Shown here in pieces: positions 1 through 63,460 of a DNA stretch of 64,000 bases. This stretch comes from Ianthella basta (taxonomy: Eukaryota; Porifera; Demospongiae; Verongiida; Ianthellidae). The notes beneath the pieces are model-generated. The model had not been told where the DNA came from, ran no database searches, and saw only the letters and a list, made by a program, of their open reading frames with translations. Where the stretch lies: positions 9,552,915 to 9,616,914 of the forward strand of contig OZ025870.1 in NCBI GenBank assembly GCA_964019415.1, read 5' to 3'. Numbering within the stretch: position 1 is the stretch's first letter; each line of letters opens with the position of its first letter. The translations under genes and the position numbers were made by a program.

Positions 1-1884
1 ATCCAACATCCAGGCAGCTCCAGCCCACCATCCCTGTTGAGGGAGGGGTGGTTCAGCCTGATGTGGATTGCCTCCTTGAGCATCAGTTCTTTGGAGGTCC
101 TGGCTTGGTCGATCACTGTTGTCTCCTCCCATTTGATTGGATAGTGGTTCTCCCACGCATGTTCTGCAAGGGCTGACTTCTCCAGTGTCCCCTTCTGACA
201 GGCATCCTGGTGCTCTTTCATTCTTGTCTCGAGCCTCCTCAGTGTCTCCCCAATGTAGATCTCGCCACAGCTGCATGGGACTTGATACACCACCTTGGAC
301 TTCTTCTCCAGCGCCAGTGTGTCCTTCACCTTGGTTAGCATGGAACGTAGAGACAGTCCAGACTTGAAGACAACCTTCATGCCGAACTTCCTACAGACCC
401 GTCTGATGTCCTCACTGACTCCTTCTGTGTAGGGAAGCATCACCAGTGGGGGTCTGCGTCCCTCCTCCGGCAGTGGCTCCTCAGTGGTCTCCACATCTCG
501 CCTGGAAGGAATGGATGAGGAGCGGATGAAGTTACTGGGGTAACCATTCTGTCTCAGCACCTCGGTGAGGTGACACTCTTCCTTCTGTAAGTCCTCCTGC
601 CTGGTGGTGATGCTCCTTGCTCTGTCGTACAGACATCTGACCAGCCCTCTTTTGACGTGAGATGGATGGTGGGACCGGAAGTCCAGGTACCGGTCCGTGT
701 GTGTGGGCTTCCTGTAGACAGTGACATCCAAGTTGCCATCATCTTTCCTCTGGAGCAGGGCGTCAAGAAAGGGGAGGCTCCCTTCCTTCTCCACTTCCAC
801 AGTGAACTTGATGGATGGCCGCACACTGTTGAGGTGGCTCAGGAGTCCTTCCATTGTGCCCTTCTTCACGATGCAGCAGGTGTCATCCACGTACCTCTTC
901 CAGAGCCGGGGCTTGGTTGGGGCGGACCTGAGTGCCAGTTCTTCGAAGAACTCCATGTACAGGTTCGCCACCACTGCTGAGACAGGGGAACCCATTGCTG
1001 CACCTTCCCGTTGCTCATAGAACTCTCCTCCGTAGCAGAAATAGGTGGACTTCAAGCACATCTCAAGCAGTTCTGCAACCCTGTCAGGAGAGAGAGTGGT
1101 CCTGTTCACCAGCGTTTCATCCCTTCGCAGTCTGTCATGAATGACCTGAACTGCCTCGTCGATGGGCACGTTGGTGAACAGGGAGGATACGTCAAAGCTG
1201 ACCAGCATCTCGTCCTCCTCAACCCTCAGGTCTGACATCACCTCCACAAAGTGCTTGGAGTTCTTCACATGTGAGTCCGTCTTGCCTGCCAAGGGAGAGA
1301 TGAGAGAGGCGATGTGTTTGGAGAGTTGGTAAGAAGGGACCCCAATGCATGAGACAATGGGTCTGAGAGGAACTTATGCCTTGTTGATCTTCGGGAGGCC
1401 GTATATCCTGGGAGGTTGGCTGCCGGATGGCCTGAGCTGGTGGTATAGATGCCCTGTGATCTCTCCATCCTTCTCCAGCCCCTTCAGTCTTCGACTCAGC
1501 CTTCCCTCCTGGGTAGCAGTAGGGTCCTTCTTCAGTCGTTTGTAGGTGGCTGTATCCAACATCCCTCTCATCTTCCTGTCGTAGTCCTCTCTCAATATCA
1601 TCACTGTGGCGTTACCCTTGTCAGCCGGCAGGATCACTTCATCCTCCAGGCTTCTTAGCTCCTTCAGGGCCTTCCTCTGCTCCTTGGTCAGGTTGTCCTT
1701 CGGAGGCTTGGCATGCCTAAGGATCCCACATACCCTTCCCCGGAGATCCTCAGCATCTTCTTCACTCAGCTGCCTTGCTCCTTCCTCTACTGCAGCTATG
1801 GTGTCTACCACCGGAAGCTTGGTTGGAGCTGGTGCAAAGTTCAGTCCCAGCTTCAGTACGTCCTCCTGTGGTTTGGAAAGTGAG
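1..1884 (-). mobile_element. Penelope-like retroelement (RT + GIY-YIG), 5'-truncated and broken
   Basis: Read on the minus strand, one frame runs from about 1884 to the window edge and is interrupted only by a TAA at 1374-1376. The order is that of a Penelope-like element. First comes an N-terminal conserved segment ending in GLNFAPAP (about 1825-1850). The reverse-transcriptase core follows, with LPADKGNATV, YGLPKIN, MGSPVSAVVANLYMEFFEEL and the catalytic YVDD at 882-893. A GIY-YIG endonuclease comes last, with VYQVPCSCGEIYIGE around 245-290 followed by R..EH. These elements copy RNA into DNA at a nick made by the GIY-YIG domain. The left end lies outside the window. The frame meets stops above 1884, so the 5' end is truncated. 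The premature stop makes this copy non-functional unless it is read through. Confidence 0.85.
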
Positions 1885-4611: not shown

Positions 4612-5200
4612 ACCTATATATTATATAATTTTTGAGCTTAGGTATTCATTCTGCGAAGTGCTCCCACGAGCAACGGCGCATGGACACCAAACTTTCCCAG
4701 ATTACGGACGCCACACCCGGTCTCGATCTAAGGGGGGTGACGTGCACAAAAAGGCCCCTGCCGAGGAGCGCGTGGCAAAAAACCTCCAAACGAGCGTCCG
4801 CCATATTGGATTTATGGAGAAAATATATGGTTTTCCACGCACGCTCCTATGCTGCCAATACAAAAGAAGAACCCCAACCGTTGTTCACGAACTCCACCTG
4901 TGAACGTCGACGAAAAGCGCCCAAACGTTCCCAGCAGTGGCACGCTGTACCTCACATCAATATAAGATGGTAGATGTGCTAAAATAAGCTGCTGCCGAGG
5001 AGCGCGGGGCCAAAACCCAGGATGAACCGACCGTCGGCCATCTTGGATCTGCGATAAACGTACAGGACCTCTCTACAGGACGCACTAGACCCCCCTACAG
5101 GAAGCACTTTACAGTTTACCCTCCTATAGCATACAGGGCCTGCCGAAGGCGGGGGCCTTGCAGCTAATATTATATAATTTTTGAGCTTAAGTATTCATAT
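4612..5200. repeat. Direct repeats of about 35 bp flanking the left arm of the foldback element
   Basis: The stretch at 4612-4648 (tattatataatttttgag, then gcttaggtattcat) recurs at 5164-5200 with about two changes. The two copies bracket the roughly 515-bp left arm of the inverted pair. This is either an unusually long target-site duplication or a local duplication made together with the insertion. Confidence 0.55.
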
Positions 5201-6345
5201 GGCTTTACATGCTTGATATTTGTATTAAAAATGTCATTGCATTTGGCGATGCTCAAGTTGTTTTTCACAAAACTTAGAACCGTTTTACTAGTGTTTCATC
5301 ATCTTGTAATCAAATGAAATGTGTTCATGAATTTGTGTTAATAAGGTGATACTGATAGAGAGCCTAAAGAGGTACTCCTCTGCAATTACAGCTCCCAAAT
5401 ATCGCGGACGGACATAAAATGGCCATGTTTGACATTCTCTGTTTGCTAAGCTCATAATCCTCTTTCTTCATGCTATCTATTTTTAGGGGCTGCCTGCCGC
5501 AGCCCCTATGTTGCTTTCAAATTGACATTTTTGTATGGCTTCATGATACAGATATAAAATTATATAGATACTAGCGGACAGACCTGCCCTTCGTGCAGGT
5601 CTCTCCGCGTGCTCGGCGTATGCCAGCTGGTCGGACACAGGCTGGTAATGCCATTGCTACTCAGGCCCCAGCTAGAAATGCACTGGCTAGTCATGCATGT
5701 TCTGGCAAAGGATAGTCCAGGCTGGCCTGGTGATGTCAGTGTGACTGACCTAGCTACCATGTGTGCATGCAAATTTACATTGAAGATCACCGTAGACAAA
5801 CAACGGATAGTTGTAAGAAGCTGATGGTTTCTGTGTGTGAGACAACCCCCTTTCCTTTTTCTCAGCTTCGGTATTGCGCTAGCTTGGATGTAATCCTCGC
5901 ACCTGCGCGAACGTCTAGGATACGGCATACTTTCTTCCAAGATCCAAGATGGCCGACGGTCGGTTCATCCTGGGTTATCGCCGCGCGCTCCTTGGCAGCA
6001 GCTTATTTTAGCATGCCTACCACCTTAGATTGATGTGAGGTACAGCGTGCCATGGCTGGGAACGTTTGGGCACGTTTCGTGGACGTTCGCGGGAGGAGTT
6101 CACGAACAACGGTTGGGGTTCTTCTTTTGTATTGGCAGCATAGGAGCGTGCGCAGATAACCGTATAATTTCTCTGTAACTCCAAGATGGCGGACGGTCGT
6201 TTGGAGGTTTTTCGCCGCGCACTCCTCGGCAGGTGCTTTTTCACGCACGTCGCCCCCTTTAGATTGAGACTGGGTGTGGCGTCCGTAATCTGGGAAAGTT
6301 TGGTGTCCATGCGCCGTTGCTCACGGGAGGAGTTCGCGAACAACC
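4650..6345. repeat. Inverted-repeat pair (foldback-type) with arms of about 400 bp
   Basis: The arm at about 4650-5060 is repeated in reverse complement at about 5930-6345. Landmarks present in both arms are the GCGCATGGACACCAAACTTT block, CCAATACAAAAGAAGAACCCC, and CCGACCGTCGGCCATCTTGGAT. Each arm itself consists of two diverged units of about 200 bp that share gaggagcgcg and a tgttcacgaac-like block. The loop of about 870 bp shows no clear gene. I found no transposase, so this is probably a non-autonomous foldback element in the intron after exon 2. Confidence 0.65.
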
Positions 6346-8870: not shown

Positions 8871-9301
8871 GCTACAGTGAGGAAGACACTGAACTCAGCC
8901 AACATTGGTACCCGCTCAGTGTATCTCCGGTCCAAACAACCTAGCTGAAGTCTGATACCATTGCAAACAAGGATGTGTATCCTCTTTTGGCTTGTGGAAG
9001 CCTCTGTGTGCAAACCTGTGCTGTATCAGTTCAGTAACAGATAATTGTTTAAGTCTTCCCTCATGAATAAAAATTGGAATACTACATACAGATATGCTTA
9101 TACCTCTACTATAGAAATATTTCTAATTTTGCTGCGGAACAGTTACTACTGACAGTTCACAGGTGATTTCAACCAGTGAAGTCAATATTTTAGGGTATGG
9201 TTTTGCACATTTTTGTGTCCTATCACAACCAATTAAGTTTGAGAAATAGGCTAGTTCTCCTAATACCAGTTTGATCCAACAGGGTATTGATCAAAGGTTA
9301 A

Positions 9302-10579
9302 TCACTGGATATTACGTCTGACCTACCAACTACACCAGTATTGGTGTCTCACTTGGCAGGGGGCACTGTGCACAATGCCTCAGTCGTGATGACTGTAGCC
9401 TCCTTGTCTGTTTCTGTTGAAACCACAAGTGTTTAACTTGTGGTGGATACAGAAGCAGTCAGTCATCCAACCATTAACCATCAGTACGCCACATGCATGT
9501 GGGACATATCCAGTCCGTTTAAATAAGGCGAACCTTGAGGTATTCACGCCTTAAAGTGTGAAATTCCTATGTTGCCATGACTACGCTCTCGCTGCATGTG
9601 ATGTGCGCGTGATTCGAGAGGATTGAGAAATTGAACGTCATATCCGACGGTGACAAGAAACAAAATGTAAAAAGACAAAAAGAAGTTTTGGTAAGAGGGA
9701 AACAGTGCTGATGTCTTCATCGTTCTCAAACTTTGAAGGGATCGACGTTTCAAGCCTTTATACAGAGGAATCTTGCACTTCAAACTCGGCGAACGTTGAA
9801 TGACATCATGTGCTTGCTTCCGTTTTATACTCCATATATGGTTTGTCACGAGAACGTCATGTGATGCACTCGGCAAAGAGGCTTTCCTGCCATTGCTTTC
9901 ACAATCCGCCGTTGTCGAAATTGCTGAGACAATTTCTTGGCCAGATAAAGATTGAAATGGTTAGCCAAGTGAGTTTTCTAACTTTTCCATGAGGGATTAT
10001 GCTTTGCGCCTTTCCTATCTAGAGTTAGGTGACCCGAACTTTCTTCAATAAACAAGTAGTTGCTGTTTTCTTGCTATAAGTTCTCAGTAGATTGGTTGAT
10101 CAACTAATCCCTAATGCAAAAGTTAGATAGTACTGTTGCGCACCCAATGATGCTGTTCTTTACCCGCTGTGCCCTTCCATTGATTTCGACATCGCCATTT
10201 ACTGCTATTTTGGTGGCTTCGTAATTGTCGCTATAACTCGATTAAAGAAAGTATTATTAACAACGCTTATGCACAGAGTTATAGAAGAGTTCTTTGTCTG
10301 TACTTTGGTATTTGTCTCGGTCTGATCCAGCTGAGCCTGTAGGAGATATAAGCAAAAATGCGAAGGACAAAATCGGCTGCGCATTGTTTACATAGCCATG
10401 TCCCACATGCGCACTGATGAGCCCCAATTAGGGCGAAACACCTGTCTGTGGCTCTTCCATCTTTGTTGGATGACTGGGGGAGGCGATCACTGGTTGCCAA
10501 CCAATAGGGCTTCGTGCCCCCCTACCAACTGAGACACTAATACTGGTGTAGTTGGTAGGTCAGGCGTAATATTCAGTGA
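9302..10579. mobile_element. 1.28-kb TIR element in TTAA, carrying a hammerhead ribozyme
   Basis: The left end (9302 onward, TCACTGGATATTACG then CTACACCAGTATTGGTGTCTC) is repeated in reverse complement at the right end (to 10579, from about 10514), giving terminal inverted repeats of about 65-70 bp with a few mismatches. TTAA stands at both borders (9298-9301 and 10580-10583). The interior has only short frames that I do not recognise, for example a 110-residue minus-strand frame at 9544-9876, so the element is non-autonomous or decayed. A hammerhead-type ribozyme sequence lies near the right end. Part of the interior (10280-10400) recurs inverted at 11400-11530. Confidence 0.75.
10409..10450 (+). 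ncRNA. Hammerhead ribozyme (type I, two-base-pair stem III)
   Basis: All conserved core positions are present and in order. CTGATGA is at 10414-10420. Stem II is GCCC (10421-10424) with loop CAATTA and GGGC (10431-10434). GAAA is at 10435-10438. Stem III is A-C (10438-10439) paired with G-T (10444-10445) around loop ACCT. The cleavage triplet GTC is at 10444-10446. Stem I pairs CGCA (10410-10413) with TGTG (10447-10450), including one G-U wobble. The predicted cut is after C10446. Small hammerheads with very short stem III are known in animal retroelements and retrozymes, where they work best as dimers. Here the ribozyme sits inside a TIR element. Confidence 0.75.
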
Positions 10580-11019
10580 TTAACCTTCAATCTATTGCCT
10601 CGCAGTGGCTAACTGCAAAAGCAATTCCCCTTTGAGGGTATTGATCACATTGCCATGGTAATGGGCATCTAAACGAAGTTTCTAAGCGTCGTACACTCCT
10701 CAGCTGTAGTTATGCGCTGTGGTCTATTTTGTCCAGCCATGTTCTACTTTGATATGCAGCGTTTGCGCCTATGATCTAAATACCACTTTTAGAGCATGGG
10801 CGTGACTTAGGCCTGTGGTCTATATATAGCAATGAAACTGCAGCTGTGATAACAATTTTTAGCTAACGCCACATAATACAATACACCATGCTTATTTATT
10901 TTGTCAAGAAACAGCAACATTATGGCTACACTATCTGCTGCCGGCTCCTCGCCAATCATTTGGAATCTACAACTCTTTAATGTTGATCAATTGCTGTCTA
11001 TGAACAATTTGGCTACTTT

Positions 11020-11650
11020 GCACTCGGGCGCTTTGCGCCCTCGTGCGTCATGGTCTTAATCTTAGAGACACCTCTTGGTCAAAATTTAACTATTACTTAT
11101 AACCTTGCCAATGTTTTGATAGATGCTCTGGTCTTCCTCAGAGCAAAAGTAAAGTAGCTAGCATCCAGGGTTCTATCTGGGATGCAATTTTTAGTGCATG
11201 GACACTGGGGTGATATGGGGGTCTGTGGGCATGCCCTCGATGAAAATTATGCAATGCTCAATATGTTGGCAAGATTTCAAGCTGGTATTTAGAGAACTAA
11301 CCCCTTTCTCGTGCCTACGTCATCTGAAAGGCCCTCACTTTGCAACCAAGTTTAATTGCTGTTTCACCACATGTGCACAATTTCTTGGCTGTGAACGCAT
11401 GTGAGTTATGGCTATGTAAACAATGCGGCTGCTGCGCGTGGCTGATTTTGACCTTCGTACTTTGGCTTGGTTCTCATACTTGCTCAGCTGGATTAGAGCG
11501 AGACTAGTACTAAACAAAAGGCAAAGAACCCCTCTATTAAACTGTGGACGATTCATGTTAACAATCCCTTCCGACATCGAGATATACGGGCGAACACGAA
11601 GTGATCGTAAAAGCAGTAAAAGCCCATGTGGTAATCGGCGGAAAGTCACA
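11020..11650. repeat. Diverged inverted copy of the ribozyme-element interior
   Basis: The stretch 11400-11530 (ggctatgtaaacaatgcgg, ccttcgtactttggctt, gctcagctggattagagcgag, ggcaaagaacccctctat) matches the reverse complement of 10280-10400. The region corresponding to the hammerhead is decayed: on the minus strand a GGTGAAACAGC remnant is left but CTGATGA is lost. A cgggcgctttgcgccc hairpin motif at about 11033, shared with the palindrome at 34135, lies beside it. Confidence 0.5.
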
Positions 11651-12555
11651 GCCGGCAGAAAACGGTTTCATCTGATGCGCATTAGCACTATCTAACTTGT
11701 CCATGTGGCATAAGTTGTTAAACCATTCTGCTCTGGAGTTATCATAAGATAACTTCGACTAACAGTTGGTGCTAAAAATATCAGCTCGCATAACTCCAGC
11801 TAGGAACAATGGGTAGCATTATGCCACATGGAAAGGCTAGAAAATCTACTTGTCTAACCGTTTTCCATGTTGATCTCGACGAGAAAGCATCGCAACGATT
11901 ACCACACATTGATTTCCTGACTGCACTGGCCAAAAGCCCTCCGTACTCGTGATAACACGTGATATCCCCTTGACATTTCCAGAAAATGTCCGACGGTGCT
12001 GTGATTCGTCGTGCTATTCGGCGGTTATACTAAAACGTTTTTGATCAGAGCTGCAAGGTAAGGCTATCGCCGTATTTGAGCACGTTTCTAGCTGCAAGAT
12101 ACCCTATTTTGAAAAGATTTCGGCCTCAGGCACCTATCTGATCACATGCTTGTCACGTGCCAACGCTGGCATTACCATGGCAACACAGGAATTCACACCT
12201 TCATGTGTCATATTACCTGATGTAAACAAATCTGGACATAACCCACATGCGAATGTACAGAAACTTTAGCATTCAGCAAATTTCTAGGCTCTACCATTAG
12301 GACTTTCTATGCCATCACTGAAGAATAGCTGATTGAACCTTCTCTACTGCAGCAGCTGCTATACTTACAGTATTGAAGGGATTTGTAGAAGAATTGATGC
12401 TGTGACCAGTGTTAAATAAAATGGCAATTGGTATCTGGGATAACTTAAGCAATGCTTGTGATAACTAGGTGATTCTCAAGCTACTGTGACCGAAGAGTGA
12501 AGTTGTTCTCTATTGCAGTTCAGAGTGGGGAGAAAAATTTTTAAGGTAACATTAA

Positions 12556-13619: not shown

Positions 13620-16600
13620 GATGATGTGTGCCAAGATCAAGGAATGCTACAAGAAGTGAAGAAGATGTTCACAGACATGAAATCTGGGCTGCTAACTTTG
13701 CAAAAGCAAGTCACTGAGAGCATGCACAGTCAAACGGCCCATTTTCAGAAGAGAGAGTTATACCAGCAGGATAAAATCCAGCTCCAAGAGCAAGTATCCA
13801 AACTGATTGACAAAAATTTGGCCAGCCAAGTGAGTAACAATATTAATATCCTTCATGCAACCAGTTGTGAATCCAATAATATGCACCAGCATATAAAATT
13901 ATGGGTTTACCCCTTCATGTAAAAGGTGATCCTCAATCTGTAGTTCTATAAGTCAGTGTTACATATGCCGGATTAAGACAACGTTTGATTGCTTTCCCCT
14001 AATAATCGCAGGATGCTGTAGAGGTTCATAGTTGAGCTGAATCATGGGTATCTATTGTATTTAAGAATGCACACAACTCAATGGATGTAATCTGCAATTA
14101 ATTTGTATGTATATACAATTTTGCTCTGCTCAAGATTATTCTAAATTTATTTAATCATTGATTATTGCATGCATTATTGTAATTGTGCATACTTACATTG
14201 GTATTTCAATTTTAGATCTTTGAAGAAGTGTGCATGCATTATGTATCATTGAAAGTTCAAATCATTGCAGAGTATGTTGGATGTTTTCATTTTCTGAAGG
14301 ATATGTCAGCTGCCATGAGTAAACTGGAAACTCTTGCTGAAGAGCTGGAAGTGCTCTCCAAAAGAATTCAGTTAGAGTCCTTGAGTGAAACTATTGAAGA
14401 GCTCCACAAGTTTAAGGACACCTTTGCAGAAGTACGTAAGGGTTTTACTTTAGGAGTACCGTATGTTCTCTAATTTCCAGCTGTTTGGATTGCAAAACAT
14501 GTGAATAGGGGCATAGATAGATAGCAGAGGGTGATATTTAGAATTTCAATCATTAGAATAGGAGACGAATATTTGGAAATCACATTATAGAGGTGCTTCT
14601 TGCAGAGAGTTCAGTGATTACCTTCAAGTTGATGGCGCAAACAGTGATGTGTGCTACAATTTATGACTTTTGGATGCTTGCATTCACCGAAGAATTCATC
14701 ATACGGCAGAAGCATGGCAACTATAATGATGAGACTCATGTGAATCAAGGGACAGCAGTTGAACTGAGCAGTCGATGAGTGTAAAATGATTCCTGCTGTG
14801 AATGGTAGATACCATGACTGCAGCATGCCTGTGATGGCTCGTTAGAGATCACAACAAGGAATTGGAATACGTCGTTCTTTGTCATCAATTAAAAACCAAG
14901 CACAACGCATTGGAGCAGGTGATGAATAATTGGACGGATGAACAATTAAAGTACATATGGTAGATATAATAATTAATCACCAGAAAATATTATTGCAAAA
15001 TCAATGGTTATGACATTCTCCAGGGTGTGCACTGTATCTGCTCTAAACATTTGTCACTCCTCAGGTCAAATGTTTGTTGATAAATTGGTGCCATTAGAGT
15101 TGGGCTAGAGAAGACTGACAAAGGTGTTAAATCAGTAGTATCTTTAAACAAACTTAAAGAAAAATCAGCTTAGTAGAATGCTTTCATAAGGGGCATTCCT
15201 ACTTACCACTTCCAAATTGATAGTGCAATCAGCAATTGCAGGCTACCGCATCTTGCGATCTCTGATGTTCATTGTCATGCCAACTGAATGAAAATGAGCA
15301 TGTAGTAAGGGCTAATAGACAAAAAAAAACAAAGATGGCAACGAGCTTGCTTAGTTCCTTGCTTTGTTCTTAACCCATTAGGACCAAATTTCAAACTTCG
15401 CGCTCGTGTACTGTGAGCCCAGCTTAAAAATGGCGGCTACGTACAAACCCGTACTTTTGCTTTCCCGTGGCTTCCTGGCTTTCCTCGCACAAAATGTTGA
15501 CATTGGGTGTTGCATTCTATGGTGCTGTTTCTTAGAAAGGCTATGGGGTGTTCAGGGCCCAGCTCTAGATTCTTTGTAAGCGTGTGCTGCCGAAGAAGAC
15601 GAGAACAGTAAGCGAACGCTTGTATTTTACTTGCTGGCACTTCTGTGACCCAGAACAGAACCTAGGAGCCACTCTAGCTGCTGGACTATTTGTTCAACAG
15701 CCGACTGCATTCGTTCTCGTCGCTACGTAGTACGTGGTAGCTTTCTGGTCACACACCAAAATGGTGCGTAACTTCGCAAAACGTTCGGCGCTTGATTGCG
15801 TGGCGCGAGAACGACCAGCAGAGACGGCGAGAGTCCGAAATGATGGCCAAATGACTAGTAGGCGTGCTGTGAAAAGTTAGTACCATTCCTCCGTTCTTGG
15901 CAGCCAAACGAAGGCAAAGTTCGTTTTGACGCAAATCTGCATCATAGGGCCTTAAGCGCATACAAATATTTGACGCAAATTTGCGTCTTTGGGCCCTAAT
16001 GGGTTAAGCTGTAACAGCCATATTGCAGCTAGTCTCATGTAGCCAGACCACCATTTTGGTCGCGTGCAGACTCCCCCCTCCCAAAAGACGGTCTGGGGGC
16101 TAACTCCCTCTTTTTTGTTATGGCAGTCCACTGGAAGTTTGGACCGTTGGTAATTGATGAGCCCATATTTGGCCGTGAGGTTAACCAATCGCCACGTCCG
16201 TCAGTTCAAGGTTGCCGTCATTCACAGAAAGCAGCACGCAGACGGAATCATCTTATCCGCATTCCTTAGCCCTGTCTGCAATGTGGATAATGTCTTTAGT
16301 CGTCCCATCTCTCCTGCGAGTAGATGTATGAAGCTCCTTACCCTATTTTGTTGCACGTGCACATAGAAATCGACTTCTAGCACGTTCCCTCCAGTTCCGA
16401 GTGCAGTTACAGCTGTCGTTGCAATACGGTGATAGGGACTGTGAATAAGACAATTCTGACTGCGTACTGCTTTTGGTGAACGTTGGCAACTTCGAACTGA
16501 CAGACATGGCGATTGGTTGACTTCGCGGCCAAATATGGACTCATCAATTACCAACAATCCAAACTTCCGGTGGACTGCCATAACAAAAAAGAGGGAGTTA

Positions 16601-19600
16601 GTCCCCAGATTCTCTTTTGGGAGGACGGAGTCTGCGCGTGACCAATATGGTGGTCTGGCTACGTGAGACTATATTGCATCCACTTCTGGCATATTATTTG
16701 AGCTCTATCTTGAAAATCATAAAAATTAGAGCCCAATGGTGGAAAGAGGAAGGCAGTAAGTTTGGCATTAGAGTGCACTTGGATGGATGATTTTATGCAA
16801 GCTATGAAGTAATGTATATCAATTGCAGTGGATATGGTGGCTAAAAGTTTATGCTTGACTGTTGTGCTTACTAAGTACCCACCCTTAAGCAGGGTTCCAA
16901 GCCTATCATTGAAATTTAACATTTACGAATCAAATTAAAGCTGTCATTTTGACAGCACTCCTGCATGAGCTAGTCAAACTAGCTCTCTCCATTAATGTAC
17001 CTGAGCACCAAAGTTTCATATGTCAATTCATTTCAATTATCTAAAAGATTCCACCAGCAAAGGTGCTAACTACCTTAATTTCGTCACTCCATCCCCAAGC
17101 GATGATATAAACTCATCTACATTTAAATAATTGGAGAAGATTGGTAGGCAAGTGAAGGAATTCATGTGCATATTCAATCATATCAAGATCATACCTTTGT
17201 ATCTCTGAAGTCTGTTTTATATATACCTTAAAGCATTTTCTTAATGGATCAATTGCTCCAGTTAACGTTCAATTTTACACTAAGATGTTAATACTGGATA
17301 CAGCTGCGGAAAGCACTAAATGCCGGAAATGGGTCCTAAGATCACAGAAATAAGCTTTTCGTTTCGGGCAGTGGTGCATTTTGCACTGATGCATGCAAAG
17401 ATATTGGAGTTCTTAATACATTTCATCACACAGAGTTTACATCCAGTAATAATATTATCATATTTTTGATACTTGTTGCAATTAGATTAGATGTTGGTCA
17501 TGGTACACATATATTTTGTCAGCTTAACTGTTATTCTATTTTCTATGCAAAGCGGTTTTTGTATCTATTATAGTGCATGTGTTTGCATTTATTTCATTAG
17601 AATGCAGATGAACTGACTGAGAAGATGGACAAGCACCAACTTGCCATTGGAGGGGAAGTGCAGGCAATGAAAGAACTTATTGTAAGTTGATGTAATAGCC
17701 ATGTTGTTCACCTTGTCTGCCTGATAGCTCTCCTGCTGTCCGTATGGATACCTTACTGTAGATACTGTACTCAAGAATGTGCCTTTCAAAGTAACTAGAT
17801 TGCCAATGTAGGCGAATACATAGTTTGTGGGCAATACGTAGCAGATTATTCAACAACTGAATGCAGGACGTTTCGGCCCGAAGGCCTTCGTCAGCTGTGT
17901 ACAAAACGTGTACATTGGATTGCCAATGCTGGGTTCCCAACTTTCTTTATTGACGTGGCACCTTATAATAGCAGCAACAACTCGCAAACTAAAGGCGGTC
18001 CTTTGCCAATTATAAATGGCCTCCGCCAACTTTTGTTCGCTCGTCATGTTCTTCTATTAAGTAATCATGTTCAGCAAGCTGGCCAATTTACTTTTCAATG
18101 ACGTTGCTTCTGAAAACCTTGCCCTGACGAAACATTCGAAGATATATGGACAGTGATGTCTTGTCTATGGTCAGTAAACATTACCACAGTAACTTAATTT
18201 CACAGCAACAGAAAATTAAAGTCTTGTGCTACATAAGTCAGGCATTCTCCTCCAATTGTGATTTAGGCCTTGGGCTTGCTTAGGTAATGCCGCAACATTG
18301 ACCAAAATTCTCGATTTTTACTAGAATTTTGACACTTATGTTGCTTAAATCAAACTGATACCTGAAAAGAACTCTTAAACTCACCTCATACAGCTGTACA
18401 GTAGCATTTCTAACATCTATCCCTTCACAACAATGCCCTTTCTGGCTAACCATCATGATTAGTTTGTTCCAAATGCAAAGCCTCCTCGTTGCCAGATGTA
18501 ACAATCCAATCAAGTGTTCATGATGTATGCATAGCTACTCATGAACACAACATGTAGCTGCACATCCATGGTATAATGCACAAACACTCCTATCTGTCTG
18601 TAACATACAAATATACCAGGCTGTGTATACATTCAACACTACATAATTACATTTGTACAAGTGTTGTGCTAATGTCCTTAAAACTGTTTTGGAATTTTGT
18701 AGGAGGGCACCACTTTGCGGCTAAGTTTGAAGGAAAGCAGAGGTGCTGTTCCCAATGTAGAGAAGACAGAGGTAGAGCAATTAAGTCAAATGGCAACTTC
18801 CGATGTGCTTGAGGTAGCAGATCCCAGTTGGCGTGCATCTACAGTCCTGCAGCAGAAGCTCACTGAAGTAGTGGATACACAGACACAGGTTATTGGTAGT
18901 GCTGTGAATTTTCTTCTGCTTCTTGTTCATTCCTTATACAAGTTGGGCCAATGGCTTAAAATCTTAAGTAGCTGGTAGCGGTCATGCTGGGGATGCTCTT
19001 ATGCTGTTGTGGATTACATAGTTCTATGTTTTGCAAGACAGTAATTATACATTTACATACTTTATGCTGCCATTCCATAGTTGCTTTCTGCACAAAGGAA
19101 GGAAATGGAAGATCGGCATCAATTTTTCCTAGACCAGTATGAAAAACTGATGGAGGAGCACCACCTTAAGTTTGAAGCCGAACTCAAGCAGCTTCAAGAT
19201 TTCAAGGTGTGTACTTTATACCTTCTTCGATAATAATTCTGCCACACTGTGGATTGCAGTCTGATGATTCTTTTTTCAGATTGGTGCATGATTGCACTTA
19301 GAAATGTTCAGTATGCACCAGGAACATAACTGCTGTAAAATAGCAGTAATCTGGATCAATAATGTGTGACTAGTGTTTATAACAAAGCTCTGAAACTGGA
19401 CAGCTGAGTGCTTGTCTTGACTAATGATTGTATTTACGTATGTGTACATGTTCATATAGGTCACACTCAGGAAGTCAATTAGTGCAATGCTATGGGAATG
19501 CAATTAGAATGGTGTTGGCTCCATGGCTCCAATCTGTGATAGCATTTGTTTACGTGGGGTCATTTCTGATGCACTTCCAGAGGTGTATAGCATGCAATTC

Positions 19601-32400: not shown

Positions 32401-34701
32401 AATCACACCAAAGCACTTAACACAAAGCCTATAGCAATGAGGCAAGGTTAGGATGAAAGTATAAACACAAAACCAAGTTTGAGATAACAATGAAGCAAAA
32501 GGTTAAAAAGGAAACACAACACCAAGTTAACAATGCAGCTACAGGTTGCAGGTTAGCTACATGTCTTTTAGAAACTCTTGCACTTCATGTTCATCCAAGG
32601 TGAAGTCCAAAGTAGGAATAGGACGCAGAGGTGGCAGTGGTGGAAGCTGCTGGCCCATGTTTATGGTCACCGTGCATCCTTGCATGTTAAACATCGACTG
32701 CTGTGGTGAGCAAATGGGATTAGGCTGCAGATGCTGTATGTATCCCTGTTCATAAGAGTGATCTCTGCTTGCAGCCATTATGCCTGAAACCACTTGATGT
32801 TCGTGTTCAGTGGTGCGTTCATATGTTCTCAAAGCTGCCAAGCTTTTGTGCCCTGTCCTCTCCTGAATAATTTTTTCGGGAACATTGGCGCGAAATAGCT
32901 CACTAGCAGCTGTAGCTCTCAGGCTGTGGTTTGTCTTATTGCCTTTTATGCCTGCATCTTCGCACATTTTTGCGACCATTCGTGCCAGCTCATTTCTGCC
33001 AACTGGGGCGGTGCTGAACCAGGGGTCATCAGGGTTAGCAGGAATTGCTGCCAAAGGACGCAAATAGAAGTTGTCCCTTTCAAAGGCTTCTTTGGGGAGT
33101 TTTGAGAGATAGAGATCCAGAATACGCACATGGCATTTCTCTCCTGCCTCTGCAACTGCATAAATGGGAACAATTTTGTTGGGGATGTGCCTCTCGGAGA
33201 ACGTTCCTTTCTTGTTTTTTGATCCTGCTTCAGTGTACAAGTAGTGATCAGGGTTGTGCTCTCGAACAATCTGAGATATTGTGAGTCGTCTGTGCTCTTC
33301 ACCACCACGGAGGCAGAAGCTATTCCCATTCAAGTAGAAAACGGTATTCAAAAGGGACTTTGGTGAGGCTGTGCCCAGAACACCTGAGCTCCATAGGGTG
33401 CTCTCCTCCTCTTTGGTAAAGGTCTCAGCATGTTTAACGCTAGTACCAATATTTTGTGTGCGCAGATCTCTAAAAAGGCTGTCTAAAGCTTTGTGAAGCA
33501 CACTAAAGCGACGGTCTTTCTTATCCAAAAAGTTGGGGGTCTCTGCATTCTCCTCACGCATGTACCTGAGGATTCCCGTCAGTAGCTGGTACACAGTAGA
33601 GGGTGGGTATGGCCGTCCTGCAGTAGTCCTGGTCTCAGCAACGAAACGGGAAAGCCATATGCACAGGAGACTTGGATCCGTTGACTGCAGAACACCGTCA
33701 GGACATCTCTCCTCTTGTGCCCTCTCGCGCACTTCCCTCCATGATTCAAAATTATTGACTGCCCACTTGGTCATCTTCTCTGTATTTGCGGGCTTGTAGC
33801 CTTCTTTCAGCTTTTCAAATTCAGCCTCGGTTAGGAACTGAAAGCGTGGGTCATTCTCCTTGTCCTCGTCATTTTCGCGGCTTCTTTTAGACGTGTGAGG
33901 CTTGTCATCAGTGCTACGCTGCTTTCCCTTAGACTTCTTGAGTGTAAGACGTTTCTTCTGGGGAGGTGGACAATTCTCCTTACATTTTGGACAGTTAGTG
34001 TAGTCAGGACAAGAGCAATCTACGAAATCGTCCGTGCACAAGCAAAAGCAACCAGACGCCATCCTGATTACATCTAGAATCCCGCGCAAAGAGCGATAAA
34101 TAAAAGCAGCCCCGGCAACGGAGTATATATCACTTATACCACGGCGCTGAGGTGTATATGAATTTTAGACGCATGAGACCCGAGGGCGCAAAGCGCCCGA
34201 GGGCGAGTGCGTCTAAAATTCATATACACCTCAGCGCCGTGGTATAACTAATACATATACACTTCATGCATGTGCTTAGGCAACATTGTGCTCATACATA
34301 TCTCGCTTCTTAAATAGTCGCCTTGATCTAAGGCTTGTCCTGGACATAGCAGAAGAACCACATGAGATCAGTTACAGCGCAGTCACCAAACTTGGAAAGA
34401 CGATTTCTGCTGGGCTGGATGTCAAGTGAGATAGTAGAATTATTATGACGTAGTTACCTAATAGCATGCAATCATTTTTATACAGATGTTTCTGTGTAAT
34501 GTCTCACTTTCCAGCTAGAATCTTTGTATCATGAGCATTGCGGAAAATTGTGCCTGCTTGTCTTTGCATTATATCTGTATATAGTATAAATATAGTTAAA
34601 TTCTTTTAGAGCACAATGGTTATCCAGATATAAATACAAAGCTGCTCCCTTGAGGGATCATCTTGACAATGACACATTAATTGCAAACAAAGTAGATGAT
34701 G
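29490..34701 (+). CDS. Exons 29490-34701: C-terminal region of the KH-domain gene
   Basis: Seven exons continue the phase-0 chain from the KH domain: 29490-29591; 29999 to about 30289 (3' end uncertain); 30420-30577; 31462-31608; 31854-32075; 34318-34425; 34610-34701. From the third of these on, phases match exactly (2, 2, 2, 2, then 1). The intron after 30577 needs a GC donor (AAG|gcgagt), which joins GMEAR to FGKIFFKAERKL. The protein reads through LHFRRFYYLKLC, EVLDWSKLRNYSIMSSRFQN, FKVPDPKLPLIWEYETLDIN, YVHFVLHTYRDNKGVFQFVD and LDLRLVLDIAEEPHE, with mixed helix and strand. I do not recognise a domain; it looks like a conserved region that accompanies the KH domain. The acceptor exon 30420 needs a phase-0 donor. 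I took CCG|gtgcca at 30289, which is weak; an alternative is 30233, but that breaks the frame. A Crypton-type element sits in the intron between 32075 and 34318. Confidence 0.65.
32239..34130 (-). mobile_element. Crypton-type tyrosine-recombinase element with short inverted termini
   Basis: A 1.9-kb unit bounded by a 22-bp inverted repeat (core TACTCCGTTGCCGGGGC at 32244-32260, its complement at 34109-34125) that extends into flanking TA repeats. It contains a single intact gene on the minus strand. Cryptons move by a tyrosine recombinase and normally lack long terminal repeats, so the short inverted ends are noteworthy. It lies in an intron of the KH gene in opposite orientation. Confidence 0.7.
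32557..34062 (-). CDS. Crypton-like tyrosine recombinase (intact frame)
   Basis: An uninterrupted frame of about 501 residues from ATG 34062 (an upstream ATG at 34089 adds nine residues). The N-terminus is Cys-rich (CFCLCTDDFVDCSCPDYTNC and onward, possibly a metal-binding finger), followed by a basic linker, a helical core-binding region (PYPPSTVYQLLTGILRYMRE) and a catalytic domain. The expected tyrosine-recombinase residues can be placed: Arg in SFCLRGGEEHRRL, His-x-x-Arg in NHSLRATAASELF, His in ERTGHKSLAALR, and Tyr in LRTYERTTEHEH (codon about 32821). The pattern matches the DUF3504-type recombinases of Crypton elements and of domesticated vertebrate genes derived from them. The C-terminal 80 residues are Pro/Gln-rich. 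No stop or frameshift was seen, so the copy may be young or under selection. Confidence 0.75.
   Translation of the reverse strand: MASGCFCLCTDDFVDCSCPDYTNCPKCKENCPPPQKKRLTLKKSKGKQRSTDDKPHTSKRSRENDEDKENDPRFQFLTEAEFEKLKEGYKPANTEKMTKWAVNNFESWREVRERAQEERCPDGVLQSTDPSLLCIWLSRFVAETRTTAGRPYPPSTVYQLLTGILRYMREENAETPNFLDKKDRRFSVLHKALDSLFRDLRTQNIGTSVKHAETFTKEEESTLWSSGVLGTASPKSLLNTVFYLNGNSFCLRGGEEHRRLTISQIVREHNPDHYLYTEAGSKNKKGTFSERHIPNKIVPIYAVAEAGEKCHVRILDLYLSKLPKEAFERDNFYLRPLAAIPANPDDPWFSTAPVGRNELARMVAKMCEDAGIKGNKTNHSLRATAASELFRANVPEKIIQERTGHKSLAALRTYERTTEHEHQVVSGIMAASRDHSYEQGYIQHLQPNPICSPQQSMFNMQGCTVTINMGQQLPPLPPLRPIPTLDFTLDEHEVQEFLKDM
34135..34247. repeat. 113-bp near-complete palindrome with 40-bp perfect arms
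   Basis: The arm 34135-34174 (TTATACCACGGCGCTGAGG and onward, ending TTTTAGACGCA) is matched exactly in reverse complement by 34208-34247. The 33-bp centre holds a second hairpin, GGGCGCAAAGCGCCC. It begins four bases after the Crypton-type element ends. Related ggcgctttgcgccc pieces occur at about 11033, 25765, 39400 and 41756, so it is a short hairpin repeat family. Confidence 0.85.
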
Positions 34702-45859: not shown

Positions 45860-46850
45860 GGAAACGGTACAGCACTGCATTCAGGGACTAGAGAGGATGC
45901 TGAGATAAGTAGGGTGGATGGAAGTGTGACAGAAGAGATTGAGGATATTTAGTCCTCATTACCAAACCATTTCCAGCCACCCCATCAGCCTGCAACCCTT
46001 CTTGTAGACCACTGCTCTCCTCCAATCCTTTGGGGCCTTACCAAACCCCATAACCATAATAACAACAATAATTATATCCACTTTCTTTAGCTCATTTCTG
46101 TCTTCAGCAACTCCACTTGAATCTCACACACACCTGGACTTCTTCCATTCTCCATCTTTCTCAGCTCTCTCGCCACTTCCTGAAGCTTAATATCCTCAAT
46201 CTCTTCTGTCACACTTCCACCCGCCCTACTTTTCTCAGCATCCTCTCTTTCCCTAAATGCAGTGCTGTAAAGTACCGCTTCCATGCATCTGTCCATGCAT
46301 GACCAGCTCCTCCTCGCACTATCATTCTATTCTCATCCTTCACTTTTCTGAATACCTCTTTTCTCCCCTTACCTCCCAAGCTTCTCACTTTCAACCATCA
46401 CTGTTTTTGCTCACCATGTGCAACTGCTTCCAACTCTCTACCAAGGTCACTCCACACTTCATTCTTAGCTCTCGTCACTACCTGCTTGGCCTCTCTTTGC
46501 TTCTACATATCTCTGCCTAGATTCAGTCGTTTCTACTTCCAACATCTTTCTGTATGCTTTTATCTTTGCAGCTACAGCGTTCTGCACTTCCTCATTCCAC
46601 CACTTTGTCCTTTTACCACCTCTCGTCTTCCTACTTACTCTACATGCACACTTCACTAGCCACCTCTACCAATGCCTCCTTCAATTCATTCCATACTATT
46701 GCCACTGAACTCACTGACAGTACCTGCATGCAGCTGCTATTCATGCTATTGCTATTTCTATGCAATATTTCTCTCAAATTTCCTTTCCATTTCATCTTCT
46801 CTTTTCCTGTCTTCTCTTCTTACTATATTGGACATAGTCAAGATTGATGT
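45860..46850 (-). mobile_element. LINE fragment (linker and first RT blocks) with an inverted duplication
   Basis: On the minus strand, frames in order read KTRGGKRTKWWNEEVQNAVA, AKIKAYRKMLEVETTES, RYFTALHLGKERML, IEDIKLQEVARELRKMENGR and SPGVCEIQVELLK. This is the region between the endonuclease and the RT of a LINE plus the first RT motifs, broken by several frameshifts. About 80 bp (46196-46275) recur in the opposite orientation at 45868-45950, so the left end folds back on itself. It could complement the 3' half at 22585-23520 as the same family. Confidence 0.7.
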
Positions 46851-49769: not shown

Positions 49770-51226
49770 TGTTAAGCTAAAGCAAAAAATGTATTAATCG
49801 GCTCTGTGTTATGTGTGTTTATTACATAATGTTTCTACGCTGTGCTAAACCTCTCTAATATCATTAATATTCATAGCATATCACACAGCATAGTAGTGCT
49901 GCTTATAGGGATGGCAGGGGTTGTTTGTATGTTGTAATACAAATGAAAAGCAGTGCTACTCTTGAACAGGACCGAAAACCGAGAAACGAAGCTTCCCATG
50001 AGGAAGTGGGGACTGAACAGTGCACATAGCTAACCCTACTTCCCTGCGAAGGTGCACCTACATGTGCCTTCAATGTTTCCCATGTTTTGTCTTCTTCTTA
50101 CTCTTCTTCTTCATTTTCTTCTTCTTTGACAGCTGTAGCGCACGAACCAAAGGGACCAGGGAGAATATTTCTTGCACCATTTTGCATCAATTTGGCATTC
50201 AACCTACAAAGAAATGCAGCTGCATTTCTTTGTAGGTTGGAAGTGGGTGCAATGTTAGTGCAAAAGACGGCGCCTGCCACAACTCTGCTGTGCTGCTTGG
50301 CCAAGCGGGACGGATGTCATTTTCAAATTAATTAATTCAGCTGGATAAAACTGGTGTGACTGGTGCCATTGTGAGCAGCTGCATACAGCTTCCAGAGGCT
50401 CCTTCTCCCATTGTGTTGCACCACAGTTGAATTCTTCATCTTGCTCCATGACAAAATGCAGCTAATTTTATCAGGTGCTAGCTACACAAGGAAGTTAAAA
50501 TAGCTATATTGTGCATCTTAGCTCATGCATGCTCCATAAAAAGTGCAGAAACTAGACATAATAAAAATTCTCTACAATATAGTAAGGATGTAGAGATGGC
50601 ATAACAAGGACAGAAACAATTAAGTAATGGCTGTTACATAGTGGAGCATTAACCATTGTCCCTTTACATTCAAGGGTGTAGAACTATACGGTGTGACATT
50701 CTTGCATGCAGGAACCATGGTGCTCCACTATGTAACAACCTTTACTTGTTTCTGTCCTCCATGTCATGTCATGTCAGTCATTAATATCATTATGACTTTT
50801 GCAAGTTTATTAATTGTTCTTTCCTCAATAACAAGAATAGAAATAAAATTAACAGTTGCACCAAGAGTTGCATTTTGCAGAGTCACTGTACGTCATACTG
50901 TGAAATCACAAAATATTCAGTTTACCATTATGACTGTTTTTTGCTTGGAACCTCACATATACTGGCCTCGTAAGTAGGGCATTAGTGGATGGACAAACAT
51001 GTAGGCTACAACCCCTAGACATAGTATGTTCTTTAGCCTGGTCACCTGCCTATAGGCAAGCCCCTGAGTATGGCTACCTAACCTGGTTTTTAATTGACAT
51101 ATGACATACATTGAGAACTGATGATGTCACTGAGAATGGGTGTGTTGGTGGATGCATTGTCTCACTTGAGCATGAAACTCATACAGTTGTCTTTTATTTC
51201 CTCTACTCGTAAGGCATTTATTCAAA
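49770..51226. other. Intergenic, no gene recognised
   Basis: Apart from the perfect palindrome at 50200-50239, I see only short frames. The segment next to 51227 may include the promoter and 5' UTR of the ankyrin-Death gene, but no TATA box or upstream exon can be placed with confidence. Confidence 0.4.
50200..50239. repeat. 40-bp perfect palindrome
   Basis: CAACCTACAAAGAAATGCAG is followed immediately by its exact reverse complement, with no spacer. Looser inverted similarity (ttgcaccattttgc against gtgcaatgttagtgcaaaa) extends it to about 50170-50275. A zero-spacer palindrome of this length is prone to hairpin or cruciform formation. Confidence 0.9.
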
Positions 51227-54200
51227 ATGGACAGCAAGCAGAATGAAGAGTTTCACAGAATGATTAAAGTGTCTGTAAATGCATATTGGAAGCTAGTGGC
51301 TTTTGTGCTTAATCTGGCAGCCACCGATTTACCAACTCGTCTGTTTCATTTCATTGGATATGGACCTTTAGTGAACATTTCAGGACCTGATGGATGTACT
51401 CCTCTACACTCAGCTGCACGGAATGGACGCACAGTTATGGTTTTAGAGTTGATACGACGAGGAGCCGAGAAAGCTAAAGGTACTGGTAGTCGAAGTACAC
51501 CACTTCATCTAGCTGCACTTCGTCGTCATGCATTGACTGTGACAGCAATGCTTCAAGCAGGCTGTCCTGTGGATGCAGTGGATGGCAATGGTTTCAGTGT
51601 TTTGCATTATGCAATATTAGGTGGTGATATTGTAGTAATAAGGGAGATCTTGAGTTCAGGGTGCAACATTAATGCTAATGGTCATACTGGTCTTACTCCG
51701 CTACATCTAGCAGCAAGTAAAGGGGCAACAGAAGCAGCACTAGAATTGATTCAACATGGGGCCAAGCCAAACATAACTGCGGATGCAATTGGCACTCCAC
51801 TGCATCAGGCTGCAGCAGGTTGTCATATAGAAACTGTTAAGGCAATGTTGATGGCAGGCTGCTCTGTAAATGTGGCATCTGACAATGGTAACAATATTTT
51901 GCATACTGCAGCTCAGGGTGGCAGTGTGCCTGTGATCAGGATGGTGTATAATACAGGGAAATGTGACATTAATGAAGGAAACAAAAGTGGCTCAACTCCG
52001 ATGCACCTAGCAGCCATGCAAGGGAACACTGAGGCAACTATAGAGCTGATCAAACTAGGAGCAAATTTAGCCAAAGTTGCTGGTCGATGTGGTACACCAC
52101 TTCATCAAGCTGCAATGCATGGTCATGCAAACACTGTGAAAGCAATATTGAAGGCCGGCTGTCCTGTTGATGTGGTGGATAGCACTGGTGGTAGCGTTCT
52201 GCATGCGGCAGTCGAATGCGGCAATACTGAAGTGATCAGAGTGTTGTTTGACGCGGGCTGTGATGTTAACATGGTAGATGGAAATGGCCAGACACCTCTC
52301 CATTGTGCAGCAGAAGCAGGACATAGAGAAGCAGTTTTGGAACTAATCCAAATTGGTGCAAAGAAATCTATTGTTGATTACAATATTGGGACTCCACTTC
52401 ATTATGCTGCTGCATGTAGTCACTTGTTGACTGTGAAGGCAATGCTTAAAGCAGGCTGCCCTCTGGATGTGATGGCCATTGATGGATGCAGTGTTTTGCA
52501 TGCTGCAGCTCATGGTGGCAGCGTACCTATTATTAGGGTAGTATTGAATGAAGGTATATGTGACATTAACAAAGCATGTGATGGTGGTTTCACTCCACTG
52601 CACTTTGCAGCTGCAAAAGGAAACAGTGAAGCAGCGTTAGAATTGATCCGTGCAGGTGCAGATAAAGGAGTAGATGCTGGCTATGGATCTCCCCCAGCTC
52701 TGGAGTTGATCAATGAAGGCGCAGAGAGAGCTGTTGTTGCTGGTGCCTGTGGTACTCCGCTTCACCAAGCTGCATTGTATGGACATGCAGAAACTGTGAA
52801 AGCATTGTTGAAGGCAGGCTGCCCTGTAAATGCGGTGGATAGTGCTGGTGGAAGTGCTTTGCATGCCTCAGTTATAGGAGGCAGTACACAAGTGATTATA
52901 GAATTGCTTAACAAGGGAGGTTCTAATGTGAATTCATTGAACATGGAAGAGGAGAGTCCGTTACATTGGGCAGCAAGAATGGGGAAATCTGATATAGCAT
53001 TAGAACTTATCAGACATGGGGCAAGGAAGGACCTAGTTGCTGGCGTAAGAGGTACTGCTCTGCATCAAGCTGCTCAGTACCGCCATCTATCCACTGTGAG
53101 GACATTGCTAAAAGCAGGATGCCCTGTGGATGTTAAGTGCAGTAATGGGTTCAGTGTGTTGCACTCTGCAGCTGGAGGTGGCAATGTTGAGGTGATCCAG
53201 GAGTTAGGACATGTGTGTAATGTGAACATGGCAAACACTGATGGAATCACTCCATTACACATTGCTGCATGCCAGGGGCACACAGAAGCAGCTTTGAAGT
53301 TGATCCGGCTTGGTGCAGATTTGGTCACTGCTTCAGATACTGTAAGGCAACCAATTCATTTAGCTGCGTCTATGGGTAACATGTCTACTGTGAAAATGAT
53401 GCTGGATGAAGGTTGTGATGTAAACATGATCAGTTTGGGTACCAGTCTTTTGCATAATGCAGTTCGGAGTGGGAACATAGGTTTGATTGCTGAGTTGCAG
53501 GCTAGAAAGTGTGATGTGAATGTTCCTGATAGTGAAGGTGATTCTCCACTAGACTATGCAGCTTTGAAAGGGAGCTCAGATGTCATTCATCTATTAATCC
53601 AACATGGAGCGGATAAGCACGCAGCTGGGGGAAGCCTAGGAGGACCTGTTCAAGCAGCAGCAGCAACTGGCAACTGGTCTATAGTTGAGACACTGATGAA
53701 AGAAGGATTTTCTTTGGATGGATGTACCATTGATGGAAAGACAATAATGCATTTAGCAGCAATTGGAGGCAATGATAAATTGCTCAATATTTTGGCTGGA
53801 AGAGGCTTTAGTGTGTCACGGACAGATTATTATGGTCTAGCACCATTGCATTATGCTGCTGTATTCCAGCATGTTGAATGCCTCAAGGCCCTTCTGGATC
53901 TAGGAGTTAGTGCAGAGGTAAAAGCACCACTTCTTGGGACTGCTTTAGACATTGCTCTATCATATGGATGCGTAGATATTCACAATGCATTGCCTGTTAC
54001 TGTATCACAATATATGATTAGAGCAGACATGAGAGTCATTCTCTTTGATAAGTGTAAAAAACACAACTTCAGTCTGCACTGTCTGGACGTGTTTTCTGAA
54101 GAGGATAGTGCAATTCGTGCTTTTGAAATACTTTTGTTCAATACTCAAGATGACAGTAACATGCTACGAAATCCATGTATTCTGAAATCTCTGCTTTCCA

Positions 54201-56527: not shown

Positions 56528-57705
56528 CTTTTGATAGAGTAAATGTAGGTTTGCTTTGTACTTTCAATCCATTTTTCTGCACTTGCATGTATCACATTAT
56601 ATTTCGTCTTCTATTTAAATGGACTGCATGCTCACAATGCAATGAATTTGTCCTCCTTTCGTAAATACAAAGCTAATTATAGTGCCTGTCACCATAATGC
56701 AGGTCACTATACCATTACAATACAAATAGACATTACAATACCGTGCATGTGCATGGGGCTTTTGAAATTGCTCAGGTTAATTAACTTGTCACAATAATTT
56801 TAATGTGCAGAATTATAATTATAATTATTATATTCATTTGCAAATATTAATGTCCCAATACATCCCCGCTGTTCCTAGTGCATGCCAATTAGGCTGTATA
56901 ATCATACCCTTTGGATTGAAGCAGTTTAGCCTTCACTGGTGACCCAGGCCTACAATAATTGCATTACAATTATTCTTTGTAAGTTACAGCCTCACATAAT
57001 CAGTGGTAGCCATATAGCTGTGCCTTCATAATCAATTCCACATCCCATCATGTCCCCTTTAGTGCAGGTATAATTATAGGACCAAAGGGCAACCCACATC
57101 CATTCTGATTAAATAGGTTATACGGTCATGTGCTAGGTATAGCCAAGCTCAGCGCTGTTCATGCAGCCAGCATGACATACATACGGTTATTCAAGTGTTC
57201 AATACCAAATCTAGTGGCATGTTTTCCACTTCAACTAAAGTAGTACTAAGATGTGGACATGGCTTCATTCATTAATTCGATGGCAATCAAATTCTGTATT
57301 GTGCATGCTAAACACTGAGCCAGATACATTTGTATGTACATAATGCATTTGGTTCTTATCAAACTTAACACCATAAGTCTTAGCAAAGTAGACATAGTTC
57401 CCACCATATTTCATGGAGTGCCTGGTCTTCCCAGAGTGGATTTTGGGTGTGCCCTATAATTAATGAAAATGATCGTAACTCTTTATTAAATTGTTCTCAT
57501 CTGATCTAACAGTAGCACTATTTCAGTTTCATTTCCATACAGAAAACTGTTTCAGTGCATCATTGTACACAGATTTGCGCTCAGGTGGTATGACCGCAGT
57601 AACAAACAGACCAACACGTGCACTGAACCGTATAAGCGGAACTAATATATGTAGTAGCAATCAACGATGTATTCTGATTGCTGTCCACAGTGAACATAAA
57701 GTGTG
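56528..57705. other. Intergenic, no gene recognised
   Basis: AT-rich sequence. From about 57520 it becomes similar to 61210-61400, which marks the upstream limit of the duplicated membrane-protein unit (probable 5' UTR or first intron, with a ctgtccacag acceptor-like site before the start codon). Confidence 0.5.
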
Positions 57706-63444: not shown

Positions 63445-63460
63445 TTTAACAGCACCCCTC

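Follow-up and report, generated by a model that had tools for sequence, protein, structure and literature searches.

In Adineta vaga, inserts of Penelope-like elements (PLEs) carry inverted pseudo-LTRs (pLTRs) of 181-218 bp and are accompanied by target-site duplications of 8-10 bp, which are lacking in some of the copies described in the extracts of the source cited here (PMC3846280). One of the inverted pLTRs may have a 31-bp tail at its 3' end, and capture of unrelated non-coding sequences between pLTRs, with target-site duplications around them, was also described (PMC3846280). In the anole PLE, known here from extracts as well, the ORF begins within the hammerhead ribozyme, and reverse transcription begins internally, downstream of the hammerhead (PMC11167929). 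The hammerhead cut lies 26 bp and the main start of reverse transcription 111-118 bp into the ORF, i.e. 85-92 bp apart, and the tail is attributed to the 30-40 bp that separate two start sites of reverse transcription (PMC11167929). According to the same extracts, the anole hammerhead cleaved only with protein present, and insertion in vitro did not depend on its cleavage (PMC11167929). Hammerheads are also described in two other kinds of animal repeats, the reports being again cited from extracts. Most classical animal type I hammerheads reside in retrozyme repeats of 170-400 nt (PMC7229834). Type I hammerheads, some of them working, are present in the W-elements of Schistosoma, for which target duplications and inner inverted repeats were reported and one family of which includes a piece of 317 bp that shares 81% identity with a DNA transposon (PMC8490949). 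In the extracts of PMC6431247 and PMC8490949, these schistosome W-elements are the nearest relative of the locus described below.

This locus lies in a 64-kb stretch of Ianthella basta DNA, hereafter the window. The reading favoured here, which has about an even chance of being right, is that 9294-10634 would be a non-coding and degenerate insert made by PLE machinery, with inverted pLTRs, ancestral hammerheads directed outward and a captured element with terminal inverted repeats (TIRs). This reading follows from analogy with the published inserts, which match the locus in their inverted arms, the outward direction of the hammerhead, the tail on one side, the short duplication and the capture of non-coding DNA. 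The hammerhead was recognised by direct reading, every expected part being present and in the correct order:

10408-10452, plus strand: type I hammerhead ribozyme motif, from RF00163 and a pattern scan, with predicted cleavage after C10446
10410-10413 and 10447-10450, plus strand: stem I, CGCA/TGTG, one pair being G.U, with G.G and U.C mismatches beyond
10414-10420, plus strand: hammerhead core CTGATGA
10421-10424 and 10431-10434, plus strand: stem II, GCCC/GGGC, with loop CAATTA
10435-10437, plus strand: GAA
10438-10439 and 10444-10445, plus strand: stem III, AC/GT, with a possible third A-U pair
10446, plus strand: C17, the cleavage-site residue

The arrangement CUGANGA...GAA...NUH with three helices, stem I being open, is thus found at 10408-10452, and stem I is weak, with its one G.U pair followed by mismatches. 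The sequence-only reading of this DNA had named CTGATGA, a 4-bp stem II, GAAA, a 2-bp stem III, a GTC cleavage triplet and a stem I of four pairs, and all of them were confirmed in their order. With cmscan, all 45 positions of the RF00163 model (Hammerhead_1) aligned to 10408-10452 on the plus strand, with an E-value of 3.6e-5 for 280 bp searched, of 0.00042 for 3301 bp and of 0.0082 for the 64 kb against all 4227 Rfam families, but the score of 28.3 bits is under the curated gathering score of 34, and a scan of the 64-kb window at gathering level reported nothing. Up to an E-value of 5, six matches were listed for the whole window, and the one at 10408-10452 is the only match to a hammerhead family among them. 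The RAGATH-1 hammerhead model aligns weakly at the same site (20.3 bits for a gathering score of 56.3). Loop II of the motif reads CAAUUA for CAAAUA in the RF00163 consensus, and stem II reads GCCC/GGGC for GUCC/GGAC, a change from U-A to C-G that keeps the pairing. The near-consensus loop and the paired change, two features located outside the invariant core, speak for descent rather than accident.

As a control for the structural pattern, the whole window was shuffled 300 times with dinucleotides preserved and scanned on both strands. The real window contains a single match over both strands; the 300 shuffles yielded two motifs when stem I was required to have at least four pairs, i.e. about 0.007 per window, and four when at least three pairs were required. 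Across a large genome, such a pattern match could by itself still be due to chance. Stronger evidence than the pattern scan comes from the Rfam score, to which loop II and the stems contribute as well, and, judged by its sequence, the hammerhead at 10408-10452 is real. Four exact-pattern matches in collections of viral (three) and genome (one) contigs were rejected as due to chance, similarity stopping at 18-23 bp; both collections are non-animal, and scans with an exact pattern miss diverged relatives.

The folding of the motif was predicted with ViennaRNA. The minimum-energy fold of an 86-nt segment pairs GAGCC with GGCUC instead of forming the hammerhead, and the hammerhead fold was 4-13 kcal/mol less stable than the ensemble in 32 out of 32 segment choices. 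In a 45-nt test, the probability of the hammerhead fold was 2.5e-4 for the window sequence and 1.2e-4 for the Rfam consensus; in longer segments it ranged from 1.6e-6 to 3.6e-9 for the window sequence, the consensus having been run at 45 nt only. Folding was rejected as an activity test and is not used against activity, because the 45-nt test, in which the Rfam consensus fares no better, fails to separate good from bad hammerheads. The GAGCC/GGCUC trap predicted in the long context remains a point against activity. Given its weak stem I, we think that the right hammerhead, whose core is kept, would be a relic or at best a protein-assisted ribozyme.

The boundaries of the locus are marked by the following features:

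9281-9293: left copy of the 13-bp direct repeat AGGGTATTGATCA, a candidate target-site duplication, exactly matching the right copy
9294-9363, plus strand: left outer inverted repeat, starting with AAGGTTAATCACTG, identical at 65 of 70 positions to the reverse complement of 10518-10587
10518-10587, minus strand: right outer inverted repeat, 65/70 with 9294-9363
10588-10634, plus strand: one-sided extension ('tail') of 47 bp that separates the right inverted repeat from the right copy of AGGGTATTGATCA
10635-10647: right copy of AGGGTATTGATCA, exactly matching the left copy

The outer inverted repeat (65/70 bp, or 92.9% identity) runs 4 bp beyond each TTAA, as AAGG/CCTT, so that TTAA falls inside the repeat. 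Of the TTAA-flanked TIR element formerly seen at this place, the inverted ends stand, but the element is not cleanly bounded by TTAA. The left copy of AGGGTATTGATCA ends at the base directly before the left arm (9293/9294) and the right copy sits 47 bp outside the right arm; an extension exists beyond the right arm only, and in a short-word search 10589-10634 matched the remainder of the window over 12 bp at most. Exact copies of AGGGTATTGATCA in the 64-kb window are limited to these two, and a copy with one mismatch is located at 6772. The significance of the direct repeat was controlled by taking flank pairs from the same window and recording their longest shared word. At least 13 bp were shared by 0 of 19,371 pairs with 40-bp flanks, 0 of 19,330 with 80-bp flanks and 4 of 19,393 with 100-bp flanks, and 12 bases by 0, 3 and 16 pairs, respectively. 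To find the repeat, the right flank must extend to 68 bp past position 10579; with flanks of 60 bp, the longest word common to both is 5 bp. AGGGTATTGATCA is a candidate for the target-site duplication in the PLE reading. A competing boundary can be read directly, as TCAA immediately flanks AGG...CCT on both sides, and a 4-bp TCAA duplication with these slightly different ends is possible. Agreement over four bases arises by chance far more easily than a 13-bp repeat.

The piggyBac and Kolobok elements are TTAA-specific cut-and-paste transposons. An account of this kind, in which the locus would be a non-autonomous MITE-like DNA transposon with long imperfect TIRs carrying hammerheads and with TTAA or TCAA duplicated, is unlikely but deserves to be weighed first among the alternatives. 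Near either end, its ribozymes would cleave transcripts that lead outward. Such an element is suggested by the 70-bp outer inverted repeat and its 92.9% identity, by the palindromic TTAA at both ends, by the TCAA that adjoins AGG...CCT on either side, by the inverted homology that resumes inward up to the hammerhead and by the presence of other inverted-repeat elements in the window. If TTAA was duplicated, however, it is unexplained why the inverted repeat goes on with AAGG/CCTT and why a 13-bp repeat adjoins the left end; moreover, 9294-10634 contains no ORF of at least 150 codons, and the 64-kb window contains no second copy with these ends or arms. The TTAA model was demoted because of the 13-bp direct repeat, and the cut-and-paste premise of the sequence-only reading loses ground to a repeat that passes TTAA, to the direct repeat and to the 47-bp extension on the right side. 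That a whole family of cut-and-paste transposons would have working hammerheads in both TIRs, trimming outward transcripts, is highly doubtful.

Several other structures were observed in the window. Inverted-repeat structures at 4653-6337, 16030-16671 and 45868-46269 have arms of 398, 239 and 85 bp with 85-92% identity. On the minus strand, 32557-34164 is a tyrosine-recombinase ORF with DUF3504/QRICH1 matches that overlaps a near-palindrome of 135 bp (34124-34257); we presume that it may belong to a Crypton-like element. A frame of 1344 codons at 51176-55210 on the plus strand encodes many ankyrin repeats and has a Death-domain match under the Pfam cut-off, and a gene region of 2.4-2.5 kb is directly duplicated at 57521-59980 and 61217-63604 with 81% identity. 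The ankyrin frame with its Death-domain match, together with the tyrosine-recombinase and reverse transcriptase pieces, gives the window the look of animal DNA.

Within the locus, the left arm was compared with the hammerhead-bearing right arm, and a trace of the same neighbourhood was found there:

9460-9489, minus strand: remnant of the hammerhead neighbourhood in the left arm, colinear with 10465-10476 plus 10409-10419 of the right arm
9460-9471, minus strand: GTTGGATGACTG in the left arm, counterpart of 10465-10476
9479-9489, minus strand: GCGTACTGATG in the left arm, counterpart of 10409-10419

Read inward, the right arm presents GTTGGATGACTG at 10465-10476 and then GCGCACTGATG at 10409-10419, the latter made up of CTGATG and of the first stem I strand. 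The left-arm blocks GTTGGATGACTG and GCGTACTGATG follow the same order with a spacing of 7 nt versus 45 nt, and the left arm is devoid of the part from stem II through the cleavage site. In a local-alignment control outside the inner repeat, only the 12-mer GTTGGATGACTG was found, and its level of score was reached by 14 of 5000 shuffles and by 22 of 19,571 random pieces of the window. The control for two colinear blocks is stronger than that for the 12-mer: both blocks were passed by 15 of 127,910 start positions on the two strands (30 for the first block, 118 for the second). As 15 is the number of allowed offsets and the printed passing piece is the left arm, these starts would represent a single place, namely the left arm itself. 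Both arms probably once carried a hammerhead, since the left arm retains what appears to be the 5' edge of one, the rest being lost; the simplest account would be that the left arm suffered a deletion which begins right behind CTGATG and removes stem II and the cleavage site. Between the outer block and the inner blocks, the arms barely align (96 nt at 9364-9459 versus 41 nt at 10477-10517). The full arm length may be estimated at about 179-196 bp on the basis of the 70-bp outer block and of blocks of 12, 11 and 13 bp.

The sequence enclosed by the arms has a relative nearby:

9490-10410: interior with inner inverted ends GCATGTGGGACAT, by alignment a diverged relative of 11396-12254
11396-12254: stand-alone relative with ends CGCATGTG...CACATGCG, inverted relative to the interior, without outer arms or hammerhead

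The interior (about 9490-10410) is 68.8% identical to the minus strand of 11396-12254 over 491 columns and 67.0% over 582 columns, and their whole-length alignment reveals similar inverted ends, GCATGTGGG. The covariance scan of 9200-12500 produced no hammerhead match in 11396-12254, and the outer arms have no match there except at the inner end. No convincing duplication flanks this relative, the longest word shared by its flanks being 7 bp. A long internal hairpin is predicted at the corresponding place in both relatives (9955-10140 and 11690-11860; no shuffle control). The arms probably enclose a short TIR element of separate origin, which is found both on its own and in this enclosed form. 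A captured ribozyme had been one of the options of the sequence-only reading; capture probably went the other way round, as the interior matches a free-standing element without arms, and it is the interior, not the ribozyme, that looks captured.

Alternatively, the hammerhead could be a passenger fossil, brought in when a retrozyme or another hammerhead retroelement was inserted into a TIR element or underwent recombination with it. This is improbable. It would agree with the abundance of classical type I hammerheads in retrozyme repeats reported in the extracts of PMC7229834, and with an intact core in the right arm next to a decayed left arm. Opposed to it are the absence of any tandem unit and of any second hammerhead detected in 9200-12500, and the 5' edge of a hammerhead retained by the left arm in inverted register, which insertion into one arm would not give. 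A metazoan retrozyme was also rejected as the best description of the locus, which has one hammerhead and no tandem unit in or around it. Lastly, chance resemblance to a hammerhead is likewise improbable, for although the RF00163 score is under the gathering threshold, many loose-pattern matches are expected in a large genome at the shuffle rates of 2/300 and 4/300, stem I is weak and another structure is strongly preferred in the longer context, the E-value holds even across 4227 families, loop II is close to the consensus, the change in stem II keeps the pairing, and the motif lies in the terminal repeat of a mobile element, its usual setting.

In the favoured reading of a PLE-made insert, two inverted pLTRs would enclose an unrelated TIR element of short length, captured as a copy, and each pLTR would once have had a minimal, outward-facing hammerhead of type I close to its inner edge; a 13-bp target-site duplication would surround the insert, with a tail beyond one pLTR. 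A PLE protein supplied in trans would have made a nick in the target and copied a pLTR-containing RNA by reverse transcription, and a start internal to the template would have left the optional tail. The inverted arms may have resulted from template switching or self-priming, and the hammerhead would cut read-through transcripts between the pLTR and the downstream sequence. As in the anole PLE (PMC11167929), the extension is found downstream of the hammerhead. From the predicted cut it is 141 bp to the end of the arm and 188 bp to that of the insert. The sequence-only reading had also proposed a retrozyme-like unit with inverted ends, of which the retroelement part fits better than a TTAA element, the structure pointing to Penelope-type pLTRs and not to a retrozyme. 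The motif, the homology of the interior, the outer arms and the direct repeat with its extension on one side are observed, whereas mobilisation by a PLE, the full length of the arms, a pair of ancestral hammerheads, capture and any cleavage are inferred, and the arms are presumed to be pLTRs.

A gene of the PLE type is present at the edge of the window:

3-1373, minus strand: PLE-type gene with reverse transcriptase and GIY-YIG, cut by the window start

The reverse transcriptase (RVT_1) was matched at an E-value of 6.2e-7, just above the Pfam cut-off. GIY-YIG was matched above cut-off at 2.8e-5 when the last 110 residues were scanned alone and was unlisted when all 457 residues of the product were scanned. 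With reverse transcriptase and GIY-YIG in one gene, Penelope-type machinery is present, now or formerly, in this genome. The adjoining frame 1374-1889 on the minus strand has no Pfam match better than an E-value of 0.19, and the reverse transcriptase piece has no solved relative better than 0.65. The whole-window Rfam listing detected no hammerhead near 3-1889 on the minus strand, and comparison of the outer arms with the surroundings of this gene gave only short stretches at chance level. Inspection of three frames by eye revealed no PLE-like ORF start at the hammerhead of the locus; the longest open frame there has 41 codons, a length judged to be near chance.

Hammerheads in Penelope elements and the capture of foreign DNA by Penelope are both already published. 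If the favoured reading is true, the locus would add to the examples of unrelated DNA, in this instance an entire TIR element, copied by Penelope machinery between pLTRs that bear hammerheads, and it would illustrate how an insert of this kind can pass for a DNA transposon. Should it instead be a true DNA transposon, the hammerhead would be located in a class of elements for whose terminal repeats a limited literature search on TIRs, DNA transposons and MITEs gave no precedent in titles and abstract openings. Hammerheads at work in transposon TIRs would have a role outside RNA-mediated retroelements and RNA circles.

Compared with TTAA-specific transposons such as piggyBac and Kolobok, 9294-10634 is alike in having TTAA at both inverted ends, and differs in a repeat that runs past TTAA, in the absence of a long ORF and in a larger flanking direct repeat. 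The motif at 10408-10452 covers RF00163 in full length with all core positions and a loop II near the consensus, the two outer pairs of stem I being unpaired. PLE hammerheads are usually without helix III, whereas 10408-10452 has a short one of 2-3 pairs. With the metazoan non-LTR retrozymes described in the extracts of PMC7229834, the locus shares a type I hammerhead and a non-coding repeat, but it has a single hammerhead, an inverted instead of a tandem arrangement and a length of 1.34 kb instead of 170-400 nt. One hammerhead in an inverted arrangement provides no pair of cuts on the same strand from which one unit could make a circle. The Schistosoma W-elements are described as satellite-like, and they resemble 9294-10634 by description only; the extracts of that report do not state a hammerhead position in a terminal inverted repeat (PMC8490949). 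In contrast to PLEs, no reverse transcriptase or GIY-YIG is encoded inside 9294-10634, an absence also seen in trans-mobilised inserts. In Poseidon of Anolis, the hammerhead is placed at the pLTR/ORF start (PMC11167929, in extract), that of 9294-10634 in the right arm, and the distance from the cut site to the insert end is greater here than in the anole PLE. Both the direct repeat (13 bp) and the tail (47 bp) are longer than those given in the extracts on published PLEs. The likeness of 9294-10634 to PLEs is one of architecture, by published description and not by pLTR sequence, and in these terms the locus resembles Pen2/Pen3 of Adineta vaga, with inverted repeats of about 200 bp, a short duplication, a one-sided tail and captured non-coding DNA (PMC3846280, in extract).
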